Source: Gemmatimonadales bacterium (GTDB lineage: Bacteria > Gemmatimonadota > Gemmatimonadetes > Gemmatimonadales > JACORV01). From it: a stretch of 38,076 nucleotides of DNA. Below are positions 750 to 30,733 of this stretch, piece by piece. The stretch covers positions 1 to 38,076 of the forward strand of contig JAUYOW010000070.1 in the NCBI GenBank assembly GCA_030697825.1, given 5' to 3'. Position 1 is the first letter of the stretch. Each line of letters opens with the position of its first letter. Position numbers and translations under genes: made by a program. Under the pieces are notes generated by a model that searched no databases, was not told the origin of the DNA, and saw only the letters and a program-made list of their open reading frames with translations.

Positions 750-832
750 TGCCCGAGGAGAGATTCGAACTCTCACGCCGTCGCCGGCACGGGATTTTGA
801 GTCCCGCGTGTCTGCCATTCCACCACTCGGGC
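750..832 (-). tRNA. tRNA-Leu (anticodon CAA)
   Basis: The minus strand folds as a class II tRNA. The acceptor stem is GCCCGAG / CTCGGGC (832-826 with 757-751) with discriminator A at 750. The anticodon arm CGGGA-CTCAAAA-TCCCG carries CAA. A variable arm follows, then the T-arm GAGAGTTCGAATCTCTC. The long variable arm and CAA anticodon identify leucine decoding UUG. The CCA tail is not encoded. A UUCG-loop terminator lies just downstream. Confidence 0.95.
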
Positions 833-8043: not shown

Positions 8044-8085
8044 AGAGTTGCAGGGTTGCAGAGTTGCAGCGGCTGCCAGTGGGCA
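8044..8085 (+). repeat. GTTGCAG repeat, copy 1 (intergenic)
   Basis: Three tandem units of the AGAGTTGCAG / AGGGTTGCAG type are followed by CGGCTGCCAGTGGGCAG. It fills the gap between the aldehyde dehydrogenase stop and the thiolase ribosome-binding site. Three further copies at 14632, 18121 and 19641 are inside coding frames. Confidence 0.85.
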
Positions 8086-13747: not shown

Positions 13748-14610
13748 GCAGCCCTGAAGCCGCGGGCGTCACCGACGTCCACGTCCACATCCAGCCGTGG
13801 CGGCAGATGAAGCCCGCCGTCATGGAGGCCATGCGGCGGGGCAAGGAGGACCACTGGGAGTTCCTCCTCGCGCTCATGGACGACCCGAAACTCCTGCTCG
13901 ACATCATGGACAAGTCGGGGATCTGGCGGGTGGGGATGGTGAACTACCCGAGTCCCGACCTGATGGGCTTCACCGACGAGACCAACACCTTCGCGGCGCG
14001 CTACGCCGAGGCAGCGCCGGAGCGGCTGCTGCCGTACGGCGGCGTCCACCCCCGCTTCGCCGGCGACATCAATGCCCAGGTGGACGAGCTGCTGGAGCTG
14101 GGCATCCGATGCCTCAAGATCCACCCGTCGCACCAGCTCTTCCCGGCCAACGCGCACACCCAGGGGATGCAGACGCTGGGCGCTATCTACCGGCGCTGCG
14201 AGGACCGCGGCTTGCCGGTGATGATCCATACCGGCACCAGCATCTTCCCCGGGGCGCGCAACAAGTACGGCAACCCGATGGAGCTCGACGACGTCGCCAT
14301 AGACTTCCCCGACCTCACCATCATCATGGCGCACGGCGGCCGGCCACTCTGGATGGACGAAGCGTTTTTCATTCTGAGGCGTCACCGGAACGTGTACCTG
14401 GACGTGTCGGGCATTCCGCCGCTCAAGATCACGGAGTACTTTCCCCGCCTCGGCGAGATCGCGGATCGCGTGCTGTGGGGGACGGACTGGCCGAGCCCCG
14501 GAGTGCGCGATCTGAAGACCAACCTCGATCAGTTCATGAGCCTGGCGTTGTCGCCGGACGTCAAGACGGCGGTAACGTGCACCAATCCGCTGAAGGTGTT
14601 CCCACAGTAA
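13744..14610 (+). CDS. Amidohydrolase-2 (TIM-barrel metal hydrolase/decarboxylase)
   Basis: The 288-residue protein has the amidohydrolase-2 pattern: H13 and H15 in DVHVHI, KIHPSHQLFPAN, a mid-barrel histidine in VMIHTG, IIMAHGG, and a late aspartate in LWGTDWPSPG. The family includes aromatic acid decarboxylases (ACMSD, gamma-resorcylate) and lactone hydrolases. GTG at 13744 overlaps the upstream stop (GTGA), so it belongs to the aromatic-CoA operon and might act on a side product such as a lactone or carboxylated ring. The substrate cannot be told from sequence. The next gene follows after 10 bp. Confidence 0.87.
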   Translation: MSSPEAAGVTDVHVHIQPWRQMKPAVMEAMRRGKEDHWEFLLALMDDPKLLLDIMDKSGIWRVGMVNYPSPDLMGFTDETNTFAARYAEAAPERLLPYGGVHPRFAGDINAQVDELLELGIRCLKIHPSHQLFPANAHTQGMQTLGAIYRRCEDRGLPVMIHTGTSIFPGARNKYGNPMELDDVAIDFPDLTIIMAHGGRPLWMDEAFFILRRHRNVYLDVSGIPPLKITEYFPRLGEIADRVLWGTDWPSPGVRDLKTNLDQFMSLALSPDVKTAVTCTNPLKVFPQ

Positions 14611-14620
14611 GGAGACTACG

Positions 14621-16012
14621 GTGATCAGTAGTGGGCAGGGTTGCAGAGTTGCAGCGGTTCGCAGCTTGCAGGCGACAGGACTGGCCTGCCTCCTGGCTGC
14701 CCTTCCGCTCCAGGGACTGAGTGCCCAGAACGCCGGGCGCATCCCGTTCGAGACGTACACGCTGCCCAACGGGCTGCGCGTGGTGCTGTCGGAGGATCGC
14801 TCGACCCCCATCGTGACGGTGAACGTCTGGTACCACGTGGGGAGCGCGAACGAGCGGGTGCGGCGGTCCGGCTTCGCGCATCTCTTCGAGCACATGATGT
14901 TCCAGGGGTCAGCCAACGTGCGGAAGGCCGAGCACTTCCAGCTGGTCGAGCGCGCCGGCGGCGAGATGAACGGCTCGACCAATGAAGACCGCACCAACTA
15001 CTTCGAGACACTGCCCTCCAACCGGCTCAACCTCGGCCTGTGGCTCGAGGCGGACCGGATGCGCTCGCTGGCCATCACGCAGGAGAACTTCGAGAACCAG
15101 CGCCAGGCGGTGAAGGAGGAGCGCCGGCTTCGGGTGGACAACCAGCCGTACCAACGGGTACTCCTGGAGGCCCTCACAGTGCCGTTCGACTCGACGGGCT
15201 GCTTCGCCTATGCGCACACGGTGATCGGCGACATGAGCGACCTCGACTCGGCCCGGGTCGAGGACGTGCAGGAATTCTTCCGCGCCAACTATGCCCCCAA
15301 CAACGCTGTGCTGACGATCGTGGGCGACTTCGATGCGGCCCAGGCTCGACGGCTGGTCGAGCAGTACTACGGCGACATCCCGCGCCAGGCCGACATTGCG
15401 GACGTGCGGTGCGAGACGCGCTACGGTACCGGTACCCGCCGCGTGGACGCGACCGACAACAACGCCAACCTCCCGGCGGTCGTGCTCGTCTACAAGGTGC
15501 CGCCGCGGTCCGACGCCGACGCCCCCGCGCTCGACCTGCTGACCACCATCTTGGGTGGCGGCGAGTCGTCCCGCCTCAACCGGCGGCTGGTGCGCAGCGA
15601 GCGCTCGGCCCTCGCTTCCGCCGGCTTCGCCAACCTGCGACGCGGGCCGGGCGTACTGCTCCTATTCGGCATCGCCAACCAGGGCGTCGAGGCCTCGCGC
15701 GTCGAGGTCCAGCTGAACGAGGAGGTGGACCGGTTGCGCAGCGACTCGATCGCCGAGGCCGAGTTGGCCAAGGCGCGCAACCAGTACCGCGCCGGAGCCA
15801 TCCGCTCGCGCCAGAGCACCATGGGCGTCGCCGAGACGCTCCAAGGCGCGCTGCGCTTCCAGGGCAGCCTCGAGGCTGCCAACACGGAGACCGATCGCTA
15901 CATGGCCGTGACCGTCGCCGACCTGCGCCGCGTGGCGCAGCGCTACCTGATGCCGGAGAACCGGCTCACCGTCGTCGTGAACCCGCCGGCTAACCGGGGA
16001 GGGAGCAACTGA
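14621..16012 (+). CDS. Exported M16 zinc peptidase, active subunit
   Basis: The 463-residue protein has a signal peptide (about 1-35, ending LSAQ) and an M16 domain. It carries the inverted zinc motif H87-L-F-E90-H91 and the distal ligand E167 (KEERRL), spaced as in pitrilysin-like peptidases. The second M16 half follows (about 250-455, LGGGESSRLNRRL). It probably degrades peptides in the periplasm together with the next protein, as M16B heterodimers do. The signal-peptide n-region (residues 4-20) is encoded by the GTTGCAG repeat. The start is GTG at 14621, with GGAG 7 bp upstream. It overlaps the second subunit by one base (TGATG). Confidence 0.9.
   Translation: MISSGQGCRVAAVRSLQATGLACLLAALPLQGLSAQNAGRIPFETYTLPNGLRVVLSEDRSTPIVTVNVWYHVGSANERVRRSGFAHLFEHMMFQGSANVRKAEHFQLVERAGGEMNGSTNEDRTNYFETLPSNRLNLGLWLEADRMRSLAITQENFENQRQAVKEERRLRVDNQPYQRVLLEALTVPFDSTGCFAYAHTVIGDMSDLDSARVEDVQEFFRANYAPNNAVLTIVGDFDAAQARRLVEQYYGDIPRQADIADVRCETRYGTGTRRVDATDNNANLPAVVLVYKVPPRSDADAPALDLLTTILGGGESSRLNRRLVRSERSALASAGFANLRRGPGVLLLFGIANQGVEASRVEVQLNEEVDRLRSDSIAEAELAKARNQYRAGAIRSRQSTMGVAETLQGALRFQGSLEAANTETDRYMAVTVADLRRVAQRYLMPENRLTVVVNPPANRGGSN
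14632..14675 (+). repeat. GTTGCAG repeat, copy 2 (inside the M16 signal peptide)
   Basis: Two GTTGCAG units followed by CGGTTCGCAGCTTGCAGGCGACAGG, the same order as in the copies at 18121 and 19641. It is translated as GCRVAAVRSLQATG. Confidence 0.85.
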
Positions 16013-18114
16013 TGCGCGCTCCTGGAATCGCCCTGGCCGCCGCAGCCATGATGGCAGTGCCGTCCGTGGCCGCCGCGCAGGTCCCGACCACGCCTCCGGC
16101 CCCGACGGCGCTGCGCCCAGTGCGCTTCCCGCCGTTCGTCAACGCGCGCCTGGCCAATGGCGTGAGCCTCGTCGTGGTCGAGAACCACGAGCAGCCGGTG
16201 GTCACCGTGTCCCTCGCCGTGCCCGCCGGCGGACGGTACGAGCCCGCCGACCGGAGCGGCCTGGCGGGCATGGTCGCCACGCTGCTCACCAAGGGAACCG
16301 AAAGCCGCACCGCCGACCAGATCGCCGCCGAGGTCGAGGGCGCGGGTGGCGGGATCGGCGCCGGCGCGGGCAACGACTTCCTGTCCATCACGGTCTCGAC
16401 CCTGACCGCGAACCTCCCGCAGGCGATGAACGTGCTCGCCGACGTGGTGGCGCACGCCAACTTCCCCGCCACCGAGGTGGACCTCGCCCGGACGCAGGCG
16501 CTGTCCACCCTCCAGCTCACGCTCTCCCAACCGGCGGCGATCGCGCAACGCATATTCGACCGCGAGGTCTACGGCGAGCACCCGTACGGCCGCAGCGAGA
16601 CGCAGGCTTCGCTCCGGGCCATCACCCGGGACGACATCGTGCGCTTCTTCAACGAGCGGGTGAAGCCCGCGGGCGCGCTCCTGGTGGTGGCCGGCGACGT
16701 GCAGCCGGCCGCGGTGCGCCGGCTGGCCTCCGAAGCCCTCGGAACCTGGCAAGGCGCTCCGGCGCCGGCCGCGGCGGAGCCCGCGGTCCCCGTACGCGCC
16801 GCCACGGAGATCGTGTTGGTGCACAAGCCCGGCGCGGTGCAGTCGAACATCGTCGCGGGCTTTCCCTTCATCACGCCGCGTGACCCGACGTTCTACGCGC
16901 TCACGGTCATGAACCGCGTCCTGGGCGGCGGCGCCGACGCGCGGCTGTTCATGATCCTGCGCGAGCAGAAAGGCTGGACGTACGGCGCCTATTCGGGCTT
17001 CACACGCCCGCGCGGCATCGGCCGCTTCGCCGCCACCGCCGAGGTCCGTACGCCCGTGACCGACAGCTCGCTGGCCGAGCTGCTCCACCAGCTGAACCGC
17101 ATCCGCACCGAGACGCCGCCCGACAGCGAGATCACGGGGGCGAAGAACTACCTCGTGGGCCGCTTCCCTCTCAGCATTGAGACGCCGGAGGAGATCGCCG
17201 GCGCGGTGGCGAGCGCGCGGCTCCTAGGCCTGCCGGACGACTACGTGATCCGCTACCGCGAGCGGCTGGCCGCCGTGACCGCCGCCCAGATCCAGGCCGC
17301 GGCTCGCCGGCACCTCACGACCGACAGGATGGTGATCGTCGTAGTGGGCGACGGACCGAGCATCTTGAACGGCCTCAAGGCGCAGGGCCTTCCGGTCCGC
17401 ATCGTGGACGTCGAGGGCCGGCCGATGACCGAGGCGGACCTCACGCCTCGCGCCGACGGCGTGGCGTGGGCGCGCGAGCGAATCGAGCCCGGGACGGTGA
17501 CGTACCGGGTCCTCCTGCAGGGCAACCCGTTCGGCCAGCAGACGCGTTCCATCTCCCAGGCGACTGAAGGAGGCCGGCCGGTACTGCGCGTGATCACCGC
17601 CTCCAACCTTGGCCCGATCATCAACCAGAGCGACACGACCGCGATGGACGCCGCGACCCTCGCACCGCTACGGGTCCGGCAGGGCGGCACGGTGCAGGGC
17701 CAGGCGACGTCGCTCAGTCTGGACTACGACGGGATGCACGTGAGGGGCCAGGGCCACACGCCGAGACCCGGCGGCGCCGCCCGCGACGTCACGGTGGACA
17801 CGACACTCGCCGCCGGCACCGTTGACAACGATCAGCTTGGCCTGTTGATCACCGCCCTGCCCCTCGCGGCCGGCGGCCGCTGGACCTTCGCGGCCTTCGA
17901 CGGCGCCGAGAACACGGTCCGGACGATGGCGGTGAGCGTGAGCGGCGAGGAGTCCGTCACGACGCCCGCCGGGACCTTCGCTTGCTGGCGGGTGGAAGTG
18001 AACGGGGGGCAGATACCGGTGGTGTTCTTCGTGCCGAAGGAGGCGCCGTACGCGCACGTGAAGCTGGAACTCGTCGGGCCACCGGTCGTGTTCGAGTTGA
18101 CAGGAAGAAACTAG
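16012..18114 (+). CDS. Exported M16-like inactive subunit fused to a C-terminal beta-rich domain
   Basis: The 700-residue protein has a signal peptide (about 1-23, VAAAQ) and two M16 repeats (about 40-460). The HxxEH site is replaced by GLAGMVATLL (about 84-93), so it has no zinc site. The substrate-binding motif of the second half is kept (LREQKGWTYGAYSGF, about 319-333). Such subunits pair with an active M16 partner, here the gene just upstream with overlapping codons. From about 480 to 700 an extra domain resembles the DUF3108-type beta-barrel region (YRVLLQGNPFG, VTTPAGTFACWRVEV, FFVPKEAPYAHVKLEL). That assignment is a guess from pattern. The fusion might tether the peptidase to a lipid or envelope ligand. 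Confidence 0.85.
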   Translation: MRAPGIALAAAAMMAVPSVAAAQVPTTPPAPTALRPVRFPPFVNARLANGVSLVVVENHEQPVVTVSLAVPAGGRYEPADRSGLAGMVATLLTKGTESRTADQIAAEVEGAGGGIGAGAGNDFLSITVSTLTANLPQAMNVLADVVAHANFPATEVDLARTQALSTLQLTLSQPAAIAQRIFDREVYGEHPYGRSETQASLRAITRDDIVRFFNERVKPAGALLVVAGDVQPAAVRRLASEALGTWQGAPAPAAAEPAVPVRAATEIVLVHKPGAVQSNIVAGFPFITPRDPTFYALTVMNRVLGGGADARLFMILREQKGWTYGAYSGFTRPRGIGRFAATAEVRTPVTDSSLAELLHQLNRIRTETPPDSEITGAKNYLVGRFPLSIETPEEIAGAVASARLLGLPDDYVIRYRERLAAVTAAQIQAAARRHLTTDRMVIVVVGDGPSILNGLKAQGLPVRIVDVEGRPMTEADLTPRADGVAWARERIEPGTVTYRVLLQGNPFGQQTRSISQATEGGRPVLRVITASNLGPIINQSDTTAMDAATLAPLRVRQGGTVQGQATSLSLDYDGMHVRGQGHTPRPGGAARDVTVDTTLAAGTVDNDQLGLLITALPLAAGGRWTFAAFDGAENTVRTMAVSVSGEESVTTPAGTFACWRVEVNGGQIPVVFFVPKEAPYAHVKLELVGPPVVFELTGRN

Positions 18115-18115
18115 T

Positions 18116-19633
18116 GTGAAGGCAGAGTTGCAGAGTTGCAGGGTTGCAGCGGTTGGCAGGCTGCAGGTGACAGGAATGGCGCTCCTGCTGACCGCTTGCG
18201 CGCGCGCGGCAGGAGCGCCGCAGCCGGCGCCGGTGCCCGCCGTCGCCACGGCGACGACCGCCGCGGCCGCCGCGGTGCGGGCGCCAAGGCAGCCGCCGGC
18301 GCAGGGCCCTCAGCCGTATCGCGACACCTTGTCGTTCGACCGGGAACAGTACCCGTCCACCTACCGCCCGCGGCCGTCGCCGCCGGTGCTCATCCGCAAT
18401 GCCACGATCCTCACCGCGACGGGAGTCGAGATCGAGCGCGGCTCCATCCTCCTGCAAGACGGAAGGATCAGCGCGGTGGGAGCGGACCTGCCGGCCCCGG
18501 CGGGCGCGATCGTCGTGGACGGCACCGGCAAGTTCGTGACGCCGGGACTCATCGACACCCATTCGCACCTCGGCGTGCATGCGGCGCCGGGGACGGCCGC
18601 CGAGGACAACGGCAACGAGTCCACGAACCCCAACACCGCGCAGGTGTGGGCGGAACACTCGTTCTGGCCGCAGGACCCTCAGCTGCCACTCGCCCAGGCC
18701 GGCGGCGTCACCACGATCCAGGTGCTGCCCGGCTCCGCGAACCTCATCGGCGGCCGCAGCGTCACCATGCACGTGGTCCCCGGCCGGACGGTGCAGGACA
18801 TGAAGTTCCCCGGCGCGCCGTATGGGGTGAAGATGGCGTGCGGCGAGAACCCGAAGCGCGTCTACGGCCGCCGAAACAGTGCGCCCTCCACGCGCATGGG
18901 GAACATGGCCGGCTACCGCTCGGCCTTCATCGCCGCGGAACGGTACCGGCGCCGCTGGGACGCGTGGAACCGCGATCGCACCGGCGACCCCCCTGAGCGC
19001 GACCTCCAGCTCGAGACCCTCGCCGGCGTGCTCCGCGGCCGGATCCTGGTCCAGAACCACTGCTACCGCGCCGACGAGATGGCGCAGATGATGGACCTGG
19101 GACGCGAATTCGGGTTCCACATCCGCTCGTTCCACCACGCGGTCGAGGCGTACAAGATCGCCGACGTGCTGGCGCGCGAGAATGTCGCCTCCTCGGTGTG
19201 GGCGGACTGGTGGGGCTTCAAGATGGAAGCGTTCGACGGAGTGCAGCAGAACGCGGCCCTGATCACCCAGGCTGGAGCGCGCGCCGTCATCCACTCCGAC
19301 GACGAGCGCGGGATCCAGCGCCTCAACCAGGAGGCGGCGAAGGCGATGTGGTCCGGGCGACGGGCCGGCATCTCGATCACGCGCGACCAGGCGCTCCGCT
19401 GGGTCACCGCGAATCCGGCGTGGGTGATCGGGCTGGATTCCGTGATCGGCACGCTGGAGGTGGGCAAGAACGCCGACGTGGTGGTCTGGAACGGCGATCC
19501 GTTCTCGGTATACGCGCGGGCGGAGCTCGTCTACGTGGACGGCGCGCTGATGTACGACCGGAACGATGCGGCGACGTGGTGGAGGACGGATTTCGAGCTG
19601 GGGAATGTGCCTGCCGCCGGGAGGGATCGGTGA
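18116..19633 (+). CDS. Lipoprotein amidohydrolase, metal site intact
   Basis: The 505-residue protein has a lipoprotein signal (LLTAC, lipidated C28) and an Ala/Pro-rich linker (30-65). Its imidazolonepropionase/prolidase-type amidohydrolase fold has H149 and H151 (DTHSH), K240 (YGVKMACGEN), H315 (VQNHCY), H340/H341 and D395 (IHSDDE). All metal ligands are present, so it is probably an active, outer-surface or periplasmic metallohydrolase. Start GTG 18116, one base after the M16 stop. Residues 3-20 are encoded by the GTTGCAG repeat. An internal ATG at 18176 would leave too short a signal. It pairs with a degenerate paralogue downstream. Confidence 0.88.
   Translation: MKAELQSCRVAAVGRLQVTGMALLLTACARAAGAPQPAPVPAVATATTAAAAAVRAPRQPPAQGPQPYRDTLSFDREQYPSTYRPRPSPPVLIRNATILTATGVEIERGSILLQDGRISAVGADLPAPAGAIVVDGTGKFVTPGLIDTHSHLGVHAAPGTAAEDNGNESTNPNTAQVWAEHSFWPQDPQLPLAQAGGVTTIQVLPGSANLIGGRSVTMHVVPGRTVQDMKFPGAPYGVKMACGENPKRVYGRRNSAPSTRMGNMAGYRSAFIAAERYRRRWDAWNRDRTGDPPERDLQLETLAGVLRGRILVQNHCYRADEMAQMMDLGREFGFHIRSFHHAVEAYKIADVLARENVASSVWADWWGFKMEAFDGVQQNAALITQAGARAVIHSDDERGIQRLNQEAAKAMWSGRRAGISITRDQALRWVTANPAWVIGLDSVIGTLEVGKNADVVVWNGDPFSVYARAELVYVDGALMYDRNDAATWWRTDFELGNVPAAGRDR
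18121..18175 (+). repeat. GTTGCAG repeat, copy 3 (inside the lipoprotein signal)
   Basis: Three GTTGCAG units, then CGGTTGGCAGGCTGCAGGTG, then ACAGGA just before the hydrophobic core. It is translated as ELQSCRVAAVGRLQVTG. Confidence 0.9.
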
Positions 19634-20970
19634 TCGGTCGGCAGGGAGAGTTGCAGAGTTGCAGAGTTGCAGCGGTCGGCAGGTTCAAGTGGGCAGGTAC
19701 GCTTGGGCGGCTCCTGCTGCTCACCTTGATGTCCGCCGTTGCGCCGTTCCGCCCTTCCGCCCTTTCCGCCCAGGTCATCGCCATCACCGGCGGCCGCGTC
19801 ATCCCGGTCTTCGGCCCGCCGATCGAGAACGGCACGGTTCTGATCCGCGACAGCATGATCGTGGCGGTCGGGGCGAACGTGGTGATCCCCGAGGGCGCCC
19901 GGCGCATCGACGCGCGCGGGAAGATCGTGACGCCGGGGCTCATCGACGCCAACACGCAGATCGGCCTGGTCGAGATCCCGCTGGGGACCCTGACGCAGGA
20001 GCTGGGCGTTCAGGGCCCGGTGGCCGCGAGCTTCAACGTGGCCGAGGGCATCAACCCGGCGTCCGTGCTCATCCCCGTCAACCGGGTGGAGGGCATCACC
20101 AGCGCCCTGGTCGTGCCGAGCGGGCCGTTCCTGGCCGGGCAGAGCGTGTTCGTGGACCTGGCGGGCGAGACGATCGACCAGATGATCGCGGGGAGCCCGG
20201 TCGCGATGCACGTCACGCTCGACGAGACCTCGAAGGAGGCCGGCTCGGGAGCGCGCGCTGGCACGCTGGCCCGGCTGCGCCGGATCCTCGGCGACGCCCG
20301 CGCCTACGCCTCGCGCCGCGCCGACTTCGAGCGGCGGCAGATGCGCGATCTGGCGGCCTCGCAGGCCGACCTCGAGGCGCTCCAGCCGGTGCTGGCCGGC
20401 CGAATGCCGCTGGTCGTCACCGCGCATCGGGTCTTCGACATCCGCAACGCGATGCGCGTGGCGCGGGAGTTCGGCCTGCGGATCGTGTTGGCCGGCGCCA
20501 CCGAGGGTTGGGAGATCGCGGACGAGATCGCGCGGGCCGGCGTGCCGGTCCTGGTCGAACCGATCGCCAACATCCCCAGCTTCAACCAGCTCGGCGCGCG
20601 GTACGAGAACGCGGCGCGGCTGGCGGCGGCCGGGGTCAGGATCGCGATCGTGACCGGAGGCTACGGCGACGGCACGACGCACAACGTGCGCCTCATCAAG
20701 CAGGAGGCCGGCACCGCGGTGTCGTACGGCCTTCCATACGAGTCCGCCCTCTATGCCGTCACCCTCGCGCCCGCGGAGATCTTCGGCATGAGCGACCGCT
20801 ACGGCTCGCTCCAGCCGGGACGGGTGGCCAACGTCGTGGTGTGGTCGGGGGATCCGTTCGAGTTCTCGACCGGAGTGGAGCACGTCTTCATCCGCGGCCG
20901 CGAGATCCCGCTCACCAGCCGCCAGACCGAGCTGCTGGAGCGCTACCGGACCCTGCCGCCTCGCTGGTAG
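19630..20970 (+). CDS. Exported amidohydrolase-like protein, metal site lost
   Basis: The 446-residue paralogue of the upstream lipoprotein keeps the beta-sandwich start (ITGGRVIPVFGPPIENGTVLI) and the closing ITGGY...LQPGRVANVVVWSGDPFEF. At the HxH position it reads LIDANTQIG, with N108 and Q110 replacing both histidines, and the later aspartate is missing. It is therefore a likely pseudoenzyme. The signal peptide is long (1-48, ending SALSAQ); its n-region comes from the GTTGCAG repeat. GTG at 19630 overlaps the upstream stop. A partner or regulatory role for the active neighbour is inferred. It ends the 15.8-kb co-directional run. Confidence 0.85.
   Translation: MIGRQGELQSCRVAAVGRFKWAGTLGRLLLLTLMSAVAPFRPSALSAQVIAITGGRVIPVFGPPIENGTVLIRDSMIVAVGANVVIPEGARRIDARGKIVTPGLIDANTQIGLVEIPLGTLTQELGVQGPVAASFNVAEGINPASVLIPVNRVEGITSALVVPSGPFLAGQSVFVDLAGETIDQMIAGSPVAMHVTLDETSKEAGSGARAGTLARLRRILGDARAYASRRADFERRQMRDLAASQADLEALQPVLAGRMPLVVTAHRVFDIRNAMRVAREFGLRIVLAGATEGWEIADEIARAGVPVLVEPIANIPSFNQLGARYENAARLAAAGVRIAIVTGGYGDGTTHNVRLIKQEAGTAVSYGLPYESALYAVTLAPAEIFGMSDRYGSLQPGRVANVVVWSGDPFEFSTGVEHVFIRGREIPLTSRQTELLERYRTLPPRW
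19641..19700 (+). repeat. GTTGCAG repeat, copy 4 (inside the second amidohydrolase signal)
   Basis: Three GTTGCAG units, then CGGTCGGCAGG. It is translated as GELQSCRVAAVGR, almost the same peptide as in copy 3. Confidence 0.9.
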
Positions 20971-29777: not shown

Positions 29778-29942
29778 TCAGCCCGCGGACTTCCGGCGCT
29801 GGAGGAAGCGGACGAGGAAAGCGGACAGAATCAGCCCCAGGCCCGGGTATCCCAACCACTTCTTCCCGGTCTGGTCCGCGAACAGGACGAGCGCCAGCCC
29901 GGCGAGGGCCAGCGCGTACTTGGCGAGGGTCGAGCCGCTCAC
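29778..29942 (-). CDS. Small two-helix membrane protein (54 residues)
   Basis: GTG at 29942 overlaps the enoyl-CoA hydratase stop (GTGA), so it is translationally coupled. The peptide VSGSTLAKYALALAGLALVL continues through FADQTGKKWLGYPGLGL to ILSAFLVRFLQRRKSAG. It has two hydrophobic helices (about 6-21 and 30-46) linked by a charged turn and a basic tail. There is no family I recognise. Start/stop overlap and the membrane pattern support it as real. Confidence 0.6.
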   Translation of the reverse strand: MSGSTLAKYALALAGLALVLFADQTGKKWLGYPGLGLILSAFLVRFLQRRKSAG

Positions 29943-30733
29943 TTCTTGAGAAACGACGCGATCGCGCTCCTGAAATCGGGCGTCCCGCGCGCTACTGCAT
30001 TCACCTTGGCGCCGAGCTTGATGCCGTCCACGAGGCTCAGACCGTCGAGCTGGTAGAACTGTTGCTTGGTGAGAGCCAGCGCCGTGGCGGAGAGCGCGGC
30101 GAGCTGGCCGAGTTGTCGCTCGACCTCCGCGTCGAACCCGTCGGCGGGAAAGACGCGGGACACGATCCCCACCCGCTCAGCCTCCGCCGCGTCCACGAGG
30201 CGTCCCGTCGCCGCGAGGTCGAACGCGACCTTCTCGCCGACCAGGCGCCGCAGCATGGTCATCACCATGGCGGGCACGAACCCGCGATTGATCTCCGGGT
30301 AGCCGAACTGCGCGCCGGCCTTCGCGAAGACGAGGTCGCACGCGGTGGCGAGCCCGCAGCCGCCGGCGAGGCACCGCCCCTCCACTACCGCAACGACGAC
30401 CTTGGGCATCTGTCTCAGCCTGACGAAGACCTCGCCCAGGTCCCAGGCGCGCTGCTCGTTCTCAGCGAGGGTGAGGTCCGCGGACTCGAGCAGCTCGTTG
30501 AGGTCGAGGCCGGCGCAGAAATCCTTCCCCGCCCCGCGGATCGCCACGATACGCACGTCCGCCGCGAGGTCCACCGTCTCGATCGCCGTCTTCAGCTCGG
30601 CGATCATGCGGCGGTCGATGGCGTTCTTCTTGTCAGGACGGTTCAGCGTCAGCGTGGCTACGCCGCTGGCGCGGTCCATGAGGACCCGCTTCTCCTGTGC
30701 CCCTGTGCCTCCGTGCCCCTGTGCCCCCGTCAT
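29939..30733 (-). CDS. Enoyl-CoA hydratase-family protein, methylglutaconyl-CoA hydratase-like
   Basis: The 264-residue crotonase (from ATG 30733) has the oxyanion segment CAGLDL (73-78) and AGGCGLATACD, where the first catalytic Glu is glycine (G127). The second is kept: E147 in GYPEINRGFVPAM. Missing the first Glu and having a Pro-Ala after the second resembles 3-methylglutaconyl-CoA hydratases (LiuC/AtuE). With AtuA and carboxylase neighbours this suggests the HMG-CoA/3-methylglutaconyl-CoA interconversion. The first ~16 residues (MTGAQGHGGTGAQEKR) are translated from a GCACAGG repeat. ATG at residue 19 (30679) may be the original start, but the ATGA overlap with the gene upstream favours 30733. 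Confidence 0.82.
   Translation of the reverse strand: MTGAQGHGGTGAQEKRVLMDRASGVATLTLNRPDKKNAIDRRMIAELKTAIETVDLAADVRIVAIRGAGKDFCAGLDLNELLESADLTLAENEQRAWDLGEVFVRLRQMPKVVVAVVEGRCLAGGCGLATACDLVFAKAGAQFGYPEINRGFVPAMVMTMLRRLVGEKVAFDLAATGRLVDAAEAERVGIVSRVFPADGFDAEVERQLGQLAALSATALALTKQQFYQLDGLSLVDGIKLGAKVNAVARGTPDFRSAIASFLKK
30693..30730. repeat. GCACAGGGGCACAGG-type tandem repeat
   Basis: On the minus strand, four imperfect ~9-bp units of GGGGCACAG / GGAGGCACAG lie at the 5' end of the enoyl-CoA hydratase gene. They sit directly at the overlap with the AtuA-tail gene and would encode TGAQGHGGTGAQ. Confidence 0.75.

Follow-up and report, generated by a model that had tools for sequence, protein, structure and literature searches.

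Signal-peptide n-regions in this Gemmatimonadota lineage probably tolerate the in-frame capture of intergenic repeats, such that the shared N-termini of otherwise different exported proteins would be captured intergenic DNA with no sequence-specific function. The window (the whole 38,076-nucleotide stretch of DNA analysed, contig C70) belongs to the G000 genome, an assembly of 3.37 Mb in 333 contigs. It contains GTTGCAG 11 times, always on the plus strand and always inside one of four arrays, three of which lie in frame after the GTG start of a predicted exported protein. Each of these three genes reads through its array into a hydrophobic stretch followed by a cleavage-like or lipobox motif, with the encoded N-terminal peptides being VISSGQGCRVAAVRSLQ... 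(gene at 14621), VKAELQSCRVAAVGRLQ... (18116) and VIGRQGELQSCRVAAVGRFK... (19630). Signal peptides were called by inspection and simple rules, and on this basis all three are predicted to have Sec or lipoprotein signal-peptide features (a positive n-region, an uncharged h-region, and LSAQ, LTAC or ALSAQ, respectively). The features are as follows.

8047 to 8069, plus strand: GTTGCAGR array of 3 units, intergenic, in the 5' leader of the thiolase gene and 3' of the aldehyde dehydrogenase gene
14610 to 14614, plus strand: Shine-Dalgarno (SD) sequence AGGAG, 6 nt before GTG 14621
14621 to 16012, plus strand: M16a, predicted exported M16 peptidase (Pfam M16), with its GTG upstream of the array
14640 to 14654, plus strand: octamer array of 2 units, encoding CRVAAV in the M16a n-region
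16012 to 18114, plus strand: M16b, second M16 peptidase, with an ordinary signal peptide (MRAPGIALAAAAMMAVPSVAAAQ); its G002 ortholog has an array after the ATG
18116 to 19633, plus strand: amidohydrolase-family lipoprotein, GTG start, lipobox LTAC
18127 to 18149, plus strand: octamer array of 3 units, read as LQSCRVAAV within the signal peptide of the lipoprotein and shared by the G001 and G002 orthologs
19620 to 19625, plus strand: Shine-Dalgarno sequence GGAGGG, before GTG 19630
19630 to 20970, plus strand: predicted exported amidohydrolase, its GTG overlapping the stop codon of the preceding gene
19650 to 19672, plus strand: octamer array of 3 units, encoding ELQSCRVAAVGR in the amidohydrolase n-region
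19732 to 19771, plus strand: another, distinct 8-bp run (TCCGCCCT), which in the amidohydrolase signal peptide gives the c-region PFRPSALSAQ

The first-pass annotation of this DNA had reported a repeat of 7 bp at four sites, one of them purely intergenic and three encoding a near-identical n-region in exported proteins whose mature parts were unrelated. Arrays are indeed present at all four sites, although the coordinates quoted were 3–9 bases early, and the fourth copy (quoted at 8044) is intergenic, lying between the aldehyde dehydrogenase and thiolase genes. The unit, however, is 8 bp and not 7, reading GTTGCAGR (GTTGCAGA/G; AGAGTTGC/GTTGCAGR). Likewise, the array-encoded peptide is shared by the three exported proteins as described, but these represent only two protein families: the lipoprotein and the amidohydrolase both match Pfam Amidohydro_1/3 and are paralogs with 30% mutual identity (E=2e-35), leaving the M16 peptidase alone as unrelated. 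The closest named relatives of the latter are from Gemmatimonadota/Gemmatimonadetes MAGs, and the M16a ortholog in the same-genus genome G002 shares 74% identity with it and has its start arranged in the same way.

It had also been proposed that such tracts be counted genome-wide and their frame compared with start codons and exported proteins. Using the tandem-pair pattern GTTGCAGRGTTGCAG we obtained 75 matches in the whole G000 genome (47 forward and 28 reverse) and none with reversed-pattern controls; the window makes up just 1.1% of the genome yet holds seven of these. The same pattern matched 93 times in G001 and 40 times in G002, both of the same genus, and 22 times in G006, of the same family, with a single match, in one genome only, across 57 further relatives. 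GTTGCAGR pairs are therefore common in both further genomes of the genus and in one from the same family, and all but absent from the rest of the order.

We inspected 117 arrays in fetched stretches of G000, G001, G002 and G006. These are head-to-tail octamers with a period of 8 and 2–7 units (most commonly 2 or 3), dispersed and mainly intergenic, with a conserved AGA (often GTAGA) upstream and a downstream consensus of CGGTnGGCAGG-nGnCAGG-nnnCAGG that fades after ~25 bases. Neighbouring arrays form 23 convergent inverted pairs (sense then antisense, 49–156 bp apart) and no divergent ones. The pairs fold as hairpins of ~110–200 nt (-59 to -122 kcal/mol) whose centres differ between loci, whereas single arrays are direct repeats that require an inverted partner 49–156 nt away to form a hairpin. 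For the 104 arrays with both neighbouring genes called, 49 were co-directional sense, 30 convergent, 21 co-directional antisense and four lay between divergent genes, and most copies are found at non-exported genes, at convergent gene ends or beside tRNAs. In 14 arrays from G000–G002 the stop codon of the upstream gene is the element's own TAG (TAGA-GTTGCAG). This pairing, placement and use of TAG as a stop codon identify the element as an intergenic foldback repeat at gene 3' ends. An Rfam search of the window returned tRNA only, with no known RNA family at the arrays.

Other short repeats are also present in the window. A second foldback family, at 846–946, runs from degenerate GTGATGG heptamers into CCATCAC heptamers and adjoins a tRNA gene (750–832, minus strand). 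The same heptamer also contributes ITSPHHPITA to the G002 L229 signal peptide; GTGATGG carries TGA in sense, and in this one case seen the signal peptide reads CATCACC. In addition, a 9-bp tandem run (CTCCCCTGA-like) at 1698–1762 lies between the minus-strand genes 935–1693 and 1736–2734 and enters the 3' end of the second.

Beyond the window, arrays read as translated were found in G000 (L038, ...RSCRVAAVYRLKEAGAKSLYCLLLCAVTCLPLAAQ; L050, where a downstream GTG is also possible), in G001 (two genes at L186, plus L195 and L215) and in G002 (M16a, M16b, the lipoprotein and L229), with G001 L195 and its G002 ortholog L229 both having an ATG start (MTELQSCRVAAAGR...). Comparison of orthologs showed that the array is present in M16a of G000 and G002, in the lipoprotein of G000, G001 and G002, in the amidohydrolase of G000 and G001, and in M16b of G002, where it immediately follows the ATG (MTRVAGLRSCRVAVGSSVQVAVMVALLAAW...). 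Orthologs with no GTTGCAGR repeat at the same site are M16a of G004 and G006, M16b of G000 (MRAPGIALAAAA...) and the amidohydrolase of G002. The array is thus gained or lost independently of the gene, as M16b illustrates, and this variation, along with a genome-wide intergenic family, bears out the earlier proposal that the shared N-terminus derives from the DNA repeat and not from gene ancestry. In several ortholog pairs both members descend from a single ancestral capture, and events are accordingly fewer than cases. Wherever orthologs differ in the distance separating the start codon from the mature protein, they do so by a multiple of 3 (3, 18, 102/120, 3 and 12), and within the array most codon changes are non-synonymous, which means that the frame is preserved and the sequence drifts. 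We considered phase variation through unit slippage, which is conceivable because 3 does not divide the 8-bp unit length, but rejected it given these length differences.

The G002 amidohydrolase ortholog (L185, contig C215) is in fact shorter by ~100 bp in its signal peptide, nearly all of which is missing (VIALLLAQTIAITGG; VIALLLAQ), and its export may have been lost as a result. In a further M16 paralog of G000 (L243 on C41, 5019–5130) the signal peptide appears to be built from three distinct 8-bp runs (AGACGCGC, TACGGCGG and CCGTTCCG) that its G002 and G006 orthologs do not have. An iron-binding-type lipoprotein of G006 (L234) reads a whole foldback element in frame from an upstream GTG.

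We assessed the link with export using an automatic rule, applied to arrays lying before a co-directional gene with orthologs merged, which asks for an in-frame start ≤75 nt upstream of the array together with an SD. Arrays with a start and SD upstream preceded six exported and no other proteins, compared with 8/22 for the remaining arrays (p=0.0015), and accepting any in-frame start gave 9 exported and 1 other versus 5/21 (p=0.0002). This bears out the association of array frame with starts and exported proteins. A hand-sorted version gave 8/0 versus 1/25 but is less independent than the automatic rule, and the signal-peptide rule is crude, with false positives that bias against the association. 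The shared frame in 6/8 translated arrays was given no weight, as GTAGA before many 3-unit arrays closes one other frame. The wider idea that most G000 signal peptides are period-8 repeats was rejected, with a strict threshold identifying 1/60 exported N-termini beyond the GTTGCAG ones. Exported N-termini are richer in intergenic 11-mers (mean 0.140 vs 0.086, p=9e-7), a comparison that is uncorrected for composition and suggestive only.

G004, from the same family and a different genus, has no GTTGCAG pairs and has an octamer of its own, GACGCCAA, for which the pattern GACGCCAAGACGCC gave 46 matches in G004 and none in G000–G002 or in controls. This octamer encodes the n-regions of M16a (VTSDKTPRRPATRGAG) and M16b (MNQHPDAKTPRNHAVSF) and, in degenerate form, that of the amidohydrolase (MTDARTSRRQGARGR), with further translated copies in a LolA-like protein (MRTELQVTRRQDAKSAG..., assigned by eye) and a lipoprotein (MTGVRRQDAKGS...). 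One copy is read in antisense, in a lipoprotein of iron-binding type (MRRFPSPRRLGAWLLATSPWRLGVWLLVAGC); the corresponding G002 protein (L222) carries an antisense GTTGCAG arm in its signal peptide. Most G004 copies are intergenic, some as inverted pairs. Among the translated copies, exceptions to the export pattern are one that extends the N-terminus of an enoyl-CoA hydratase and three in linker-like segments; in G004 alone the association with export is non-significant (start and SD 2/1 vs 6/10, p=0.55). Neither GTTGCAGA nor GACGCCAA contains a stop in any frame on either strand (VAELQSCR / SATLQLCN and DAKTPRRQ / LASWRLGV, respectively), but we do not regard this as a special property since ~74% of random octamers at 69% GC share it. 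No recurring short repeats of this sort were seen in the inspected N-termini of M16 homologs from other Gemmatimonadota. G006 was rejected as a further parallel: its two M16 n-regions share a non-octamer motif, but this occurs only twice in that genome. Within the window, a run of the octamer GGGCACAG at 30692–30733 (minus strand) forms the N-terminus (MTGAQGHGGTGAQEKRVLMDR) of an enoyl-CoA-hydratase-like, apparently cytosolic protein (gene 29939–30733), and a similar G004 protein has a GACGCCAA run at its N-terminus.

Whether the arrays are translated depends on where initiation occurs, and one alternative is that they are untranslated leaders with upstream GTGs present by chance and initiation downstream of the repeat. 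Most arrays elsewhere are plainly in 5' leaders or intergenic, plausible downstream starts exist in L050 and in G002 L226 and L229, and a codon-usage caller preferred a post-array start in two of the three window genes (TTG 14666 and ATG 18176), leaving the choice of start unsettled by coding statistics. However, no usable downstream start exists for the amidohydrolase, for the lipoprotein in three genomes or for G001 L195. In the amidohydrolase there is no start codon between array and h-region and the only alternative is a TTG within the array; L195 likewise has one ATG, before the array, and otherwise only a TTG inside it. The lipoprotein could start at a TTG within its array, at GTG 18167 or at ATG 18176, with the latter two leaving just 10 and 7 residues before the Cys, and the sole downstream start of M16a, TTG 14666, has no SD and strips the protein of all positive charge. 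Furthermore, good SDs precede GTG 14621 and GTG 19630, and the frame is conserved across all orthologs. We therefore consider initiation downstream of the repeat unlikely, and from the sequence the best reading for the window genes is translation through the array.

If the arrays are translated, the N-termini might instead be homologous, through duplication or conversion of a signal-peptide segment from gene to gene with the intergenic copies secondary. The paralogy of the two amidohydrolases fits this, as does the finding that after the array the n-regions of M16a and the lipoprotein are identical at 25/30 and 24/30 positions within a genome, compared with 15/30 in all four cross-genome comparisons, which suggests conversion between these neighbouring signal peptides. 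Intergenic copies nevertheless far exceed translated ones and bear the entire foldback structure, and orthologs differ in whether they have the array at all, making gene-to-gene copying a very improbable source of the repeat. The repeat might otherwise have a specific selected function at exported genes, such as an RNA signal for translation coupling or mRNA localisation, in line with the enrichment of translated copies in exported genes and their conservation at orthologous lipoprotein starts in three genomes. Against this, the bulk of copies lie away from exported genes, G000 M16b and the G002 amidohydrolase manage with no array, G004 employs an unrelated octamer, and array codon changes are mainly non-synonymous; such a function also appears unlikely.

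We thus favour the capture of intergenic DNA by permissive n-regions. The GTTGCAGR element, with 2–4 octamers, accumulates just 3' of genes, singly or as a convergent inverted pair, and we infer that its spread relies on the recombination or slippage to which foldback repeats are prone. If the gene that follows in the same orientation codes for an exported protein, there would be room for the repeat between start codon and hydrophobic core: it is stop-free in every frame on both strands and would supply arginines from its sense strand. The n-region would require little more than positive charge and is then removed by cleavage, so insertions should be tolerated; at genes for cytosolic proteins the repeat would normally remain in the untranslated leader. 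The array-bearing signal peptides would be translated, cleaved and neutral. The first-pass annotation saw a repeat that had become signal peptides, which suggests recruitment; the repeat does appear to be read through in them, but the relaxed amino-acid change, the cytosolic and linker exceptions in G004 and the use of another octamer at the same genes point to tolerance of insertions where the protein is under weak constraint. More tentatively, signal peptides in this family could be continually rebuilt from whichever octamer is expanding, with genera overwriting the same signal peptides differently and copies homogenising within a genome. Sense strands would then give arginine-bearing n-regions and antisense strands hydrophobic or uncharged stretches, as in the iron-binding-type lipoprotein of G002 and G004. 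This possibility is somewhat less likely than not to hold, and if true would constitute a repeat-driven route to new secretion signals.

The origin and fast sequence turnover of signal peptides are usually ascribed to point mutation in sequence under weak constraint. In the present case parts of signal peptides appear to come from intergenic repeats, with the same set of orthologs affected in parallel in two genera, making the origin of a targeting signal traceable and testable. For annotation, starts called after such repeats would remove signal peptides; nor do N-termini that look alike in these genomes imply common ancestry.

In architecture GTTGCAGR is closest to the GGGAATC and GGGGA(C/T)T heptamers of Xanthomonas and Nostoc, as both are dispersed, intergenic tandems of 6–9 nt units (PMC4692102). 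Those heptamers occur in few tandem copies, ~90% intergenic and near the 3' end of the upstream gene, with frequent convergent inverted pairs and rare placement between divergent genes, and 7–11% of copies are intragenic, with signal peptides unmentioned in the text of that paper (PMC4692102). GTTGCAGR arrays share the preference for convergent pairs (23 vs 0 divergent) and the avoidance of divergent regions, but have an 8-bp unit with no G-tracts and hence no G-quadruplex candidate. GTAG/CGTC REPs similarly lie between co-directional and convergent genes, with a terminal TAG that is often the stop codon of the flanking gene (PMC3733652). GTTGCAGR resembles GTAG REPs and REPIN doublets in position, in TAG as a stop codon (14 arrays) and in its inverted doublets; unlike REPs, a single copy has no 20–40 nt palindrome or hairpin. 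The GTAG tag directly precedes the first unit in only ~34 of ~117 arrays (~29%), and a Y1_Tnp/RAYT (PF01797) profile search gave no hits in 7 genomes, with positive controls detected. On these grounds we rejected identity with REP/REPIN-RAYT systems.

Repeat-derived coding is a known kind of phenomenon. In Yersinia, an RU-2 repeat encodes residues 1–30 of the predicted signal peptide of YPO1552, homologs of which elsewhere have unrelated signal peptides, and the same article cites Rickettsia palindromic elements (RPEs), which insert into protein-coding genes without breaking the frame and are translated (PMC2759123). Unlike the single gene YPO1552, the GTTGCAGR case involves several gene families, octamer tandems and a second genus with another repeat, and in a limited literature search we found no description of several gene families, ortholog presence/absence and sister-genus octamers. 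As with RPE and RU coding repeats, the host frame is preserved and orthologs with no repeat exist. RPEs are whole palindromic elements within mature proteins, whereas the translated GTTGCAGR copies are mostly half-elements within signal peptides.
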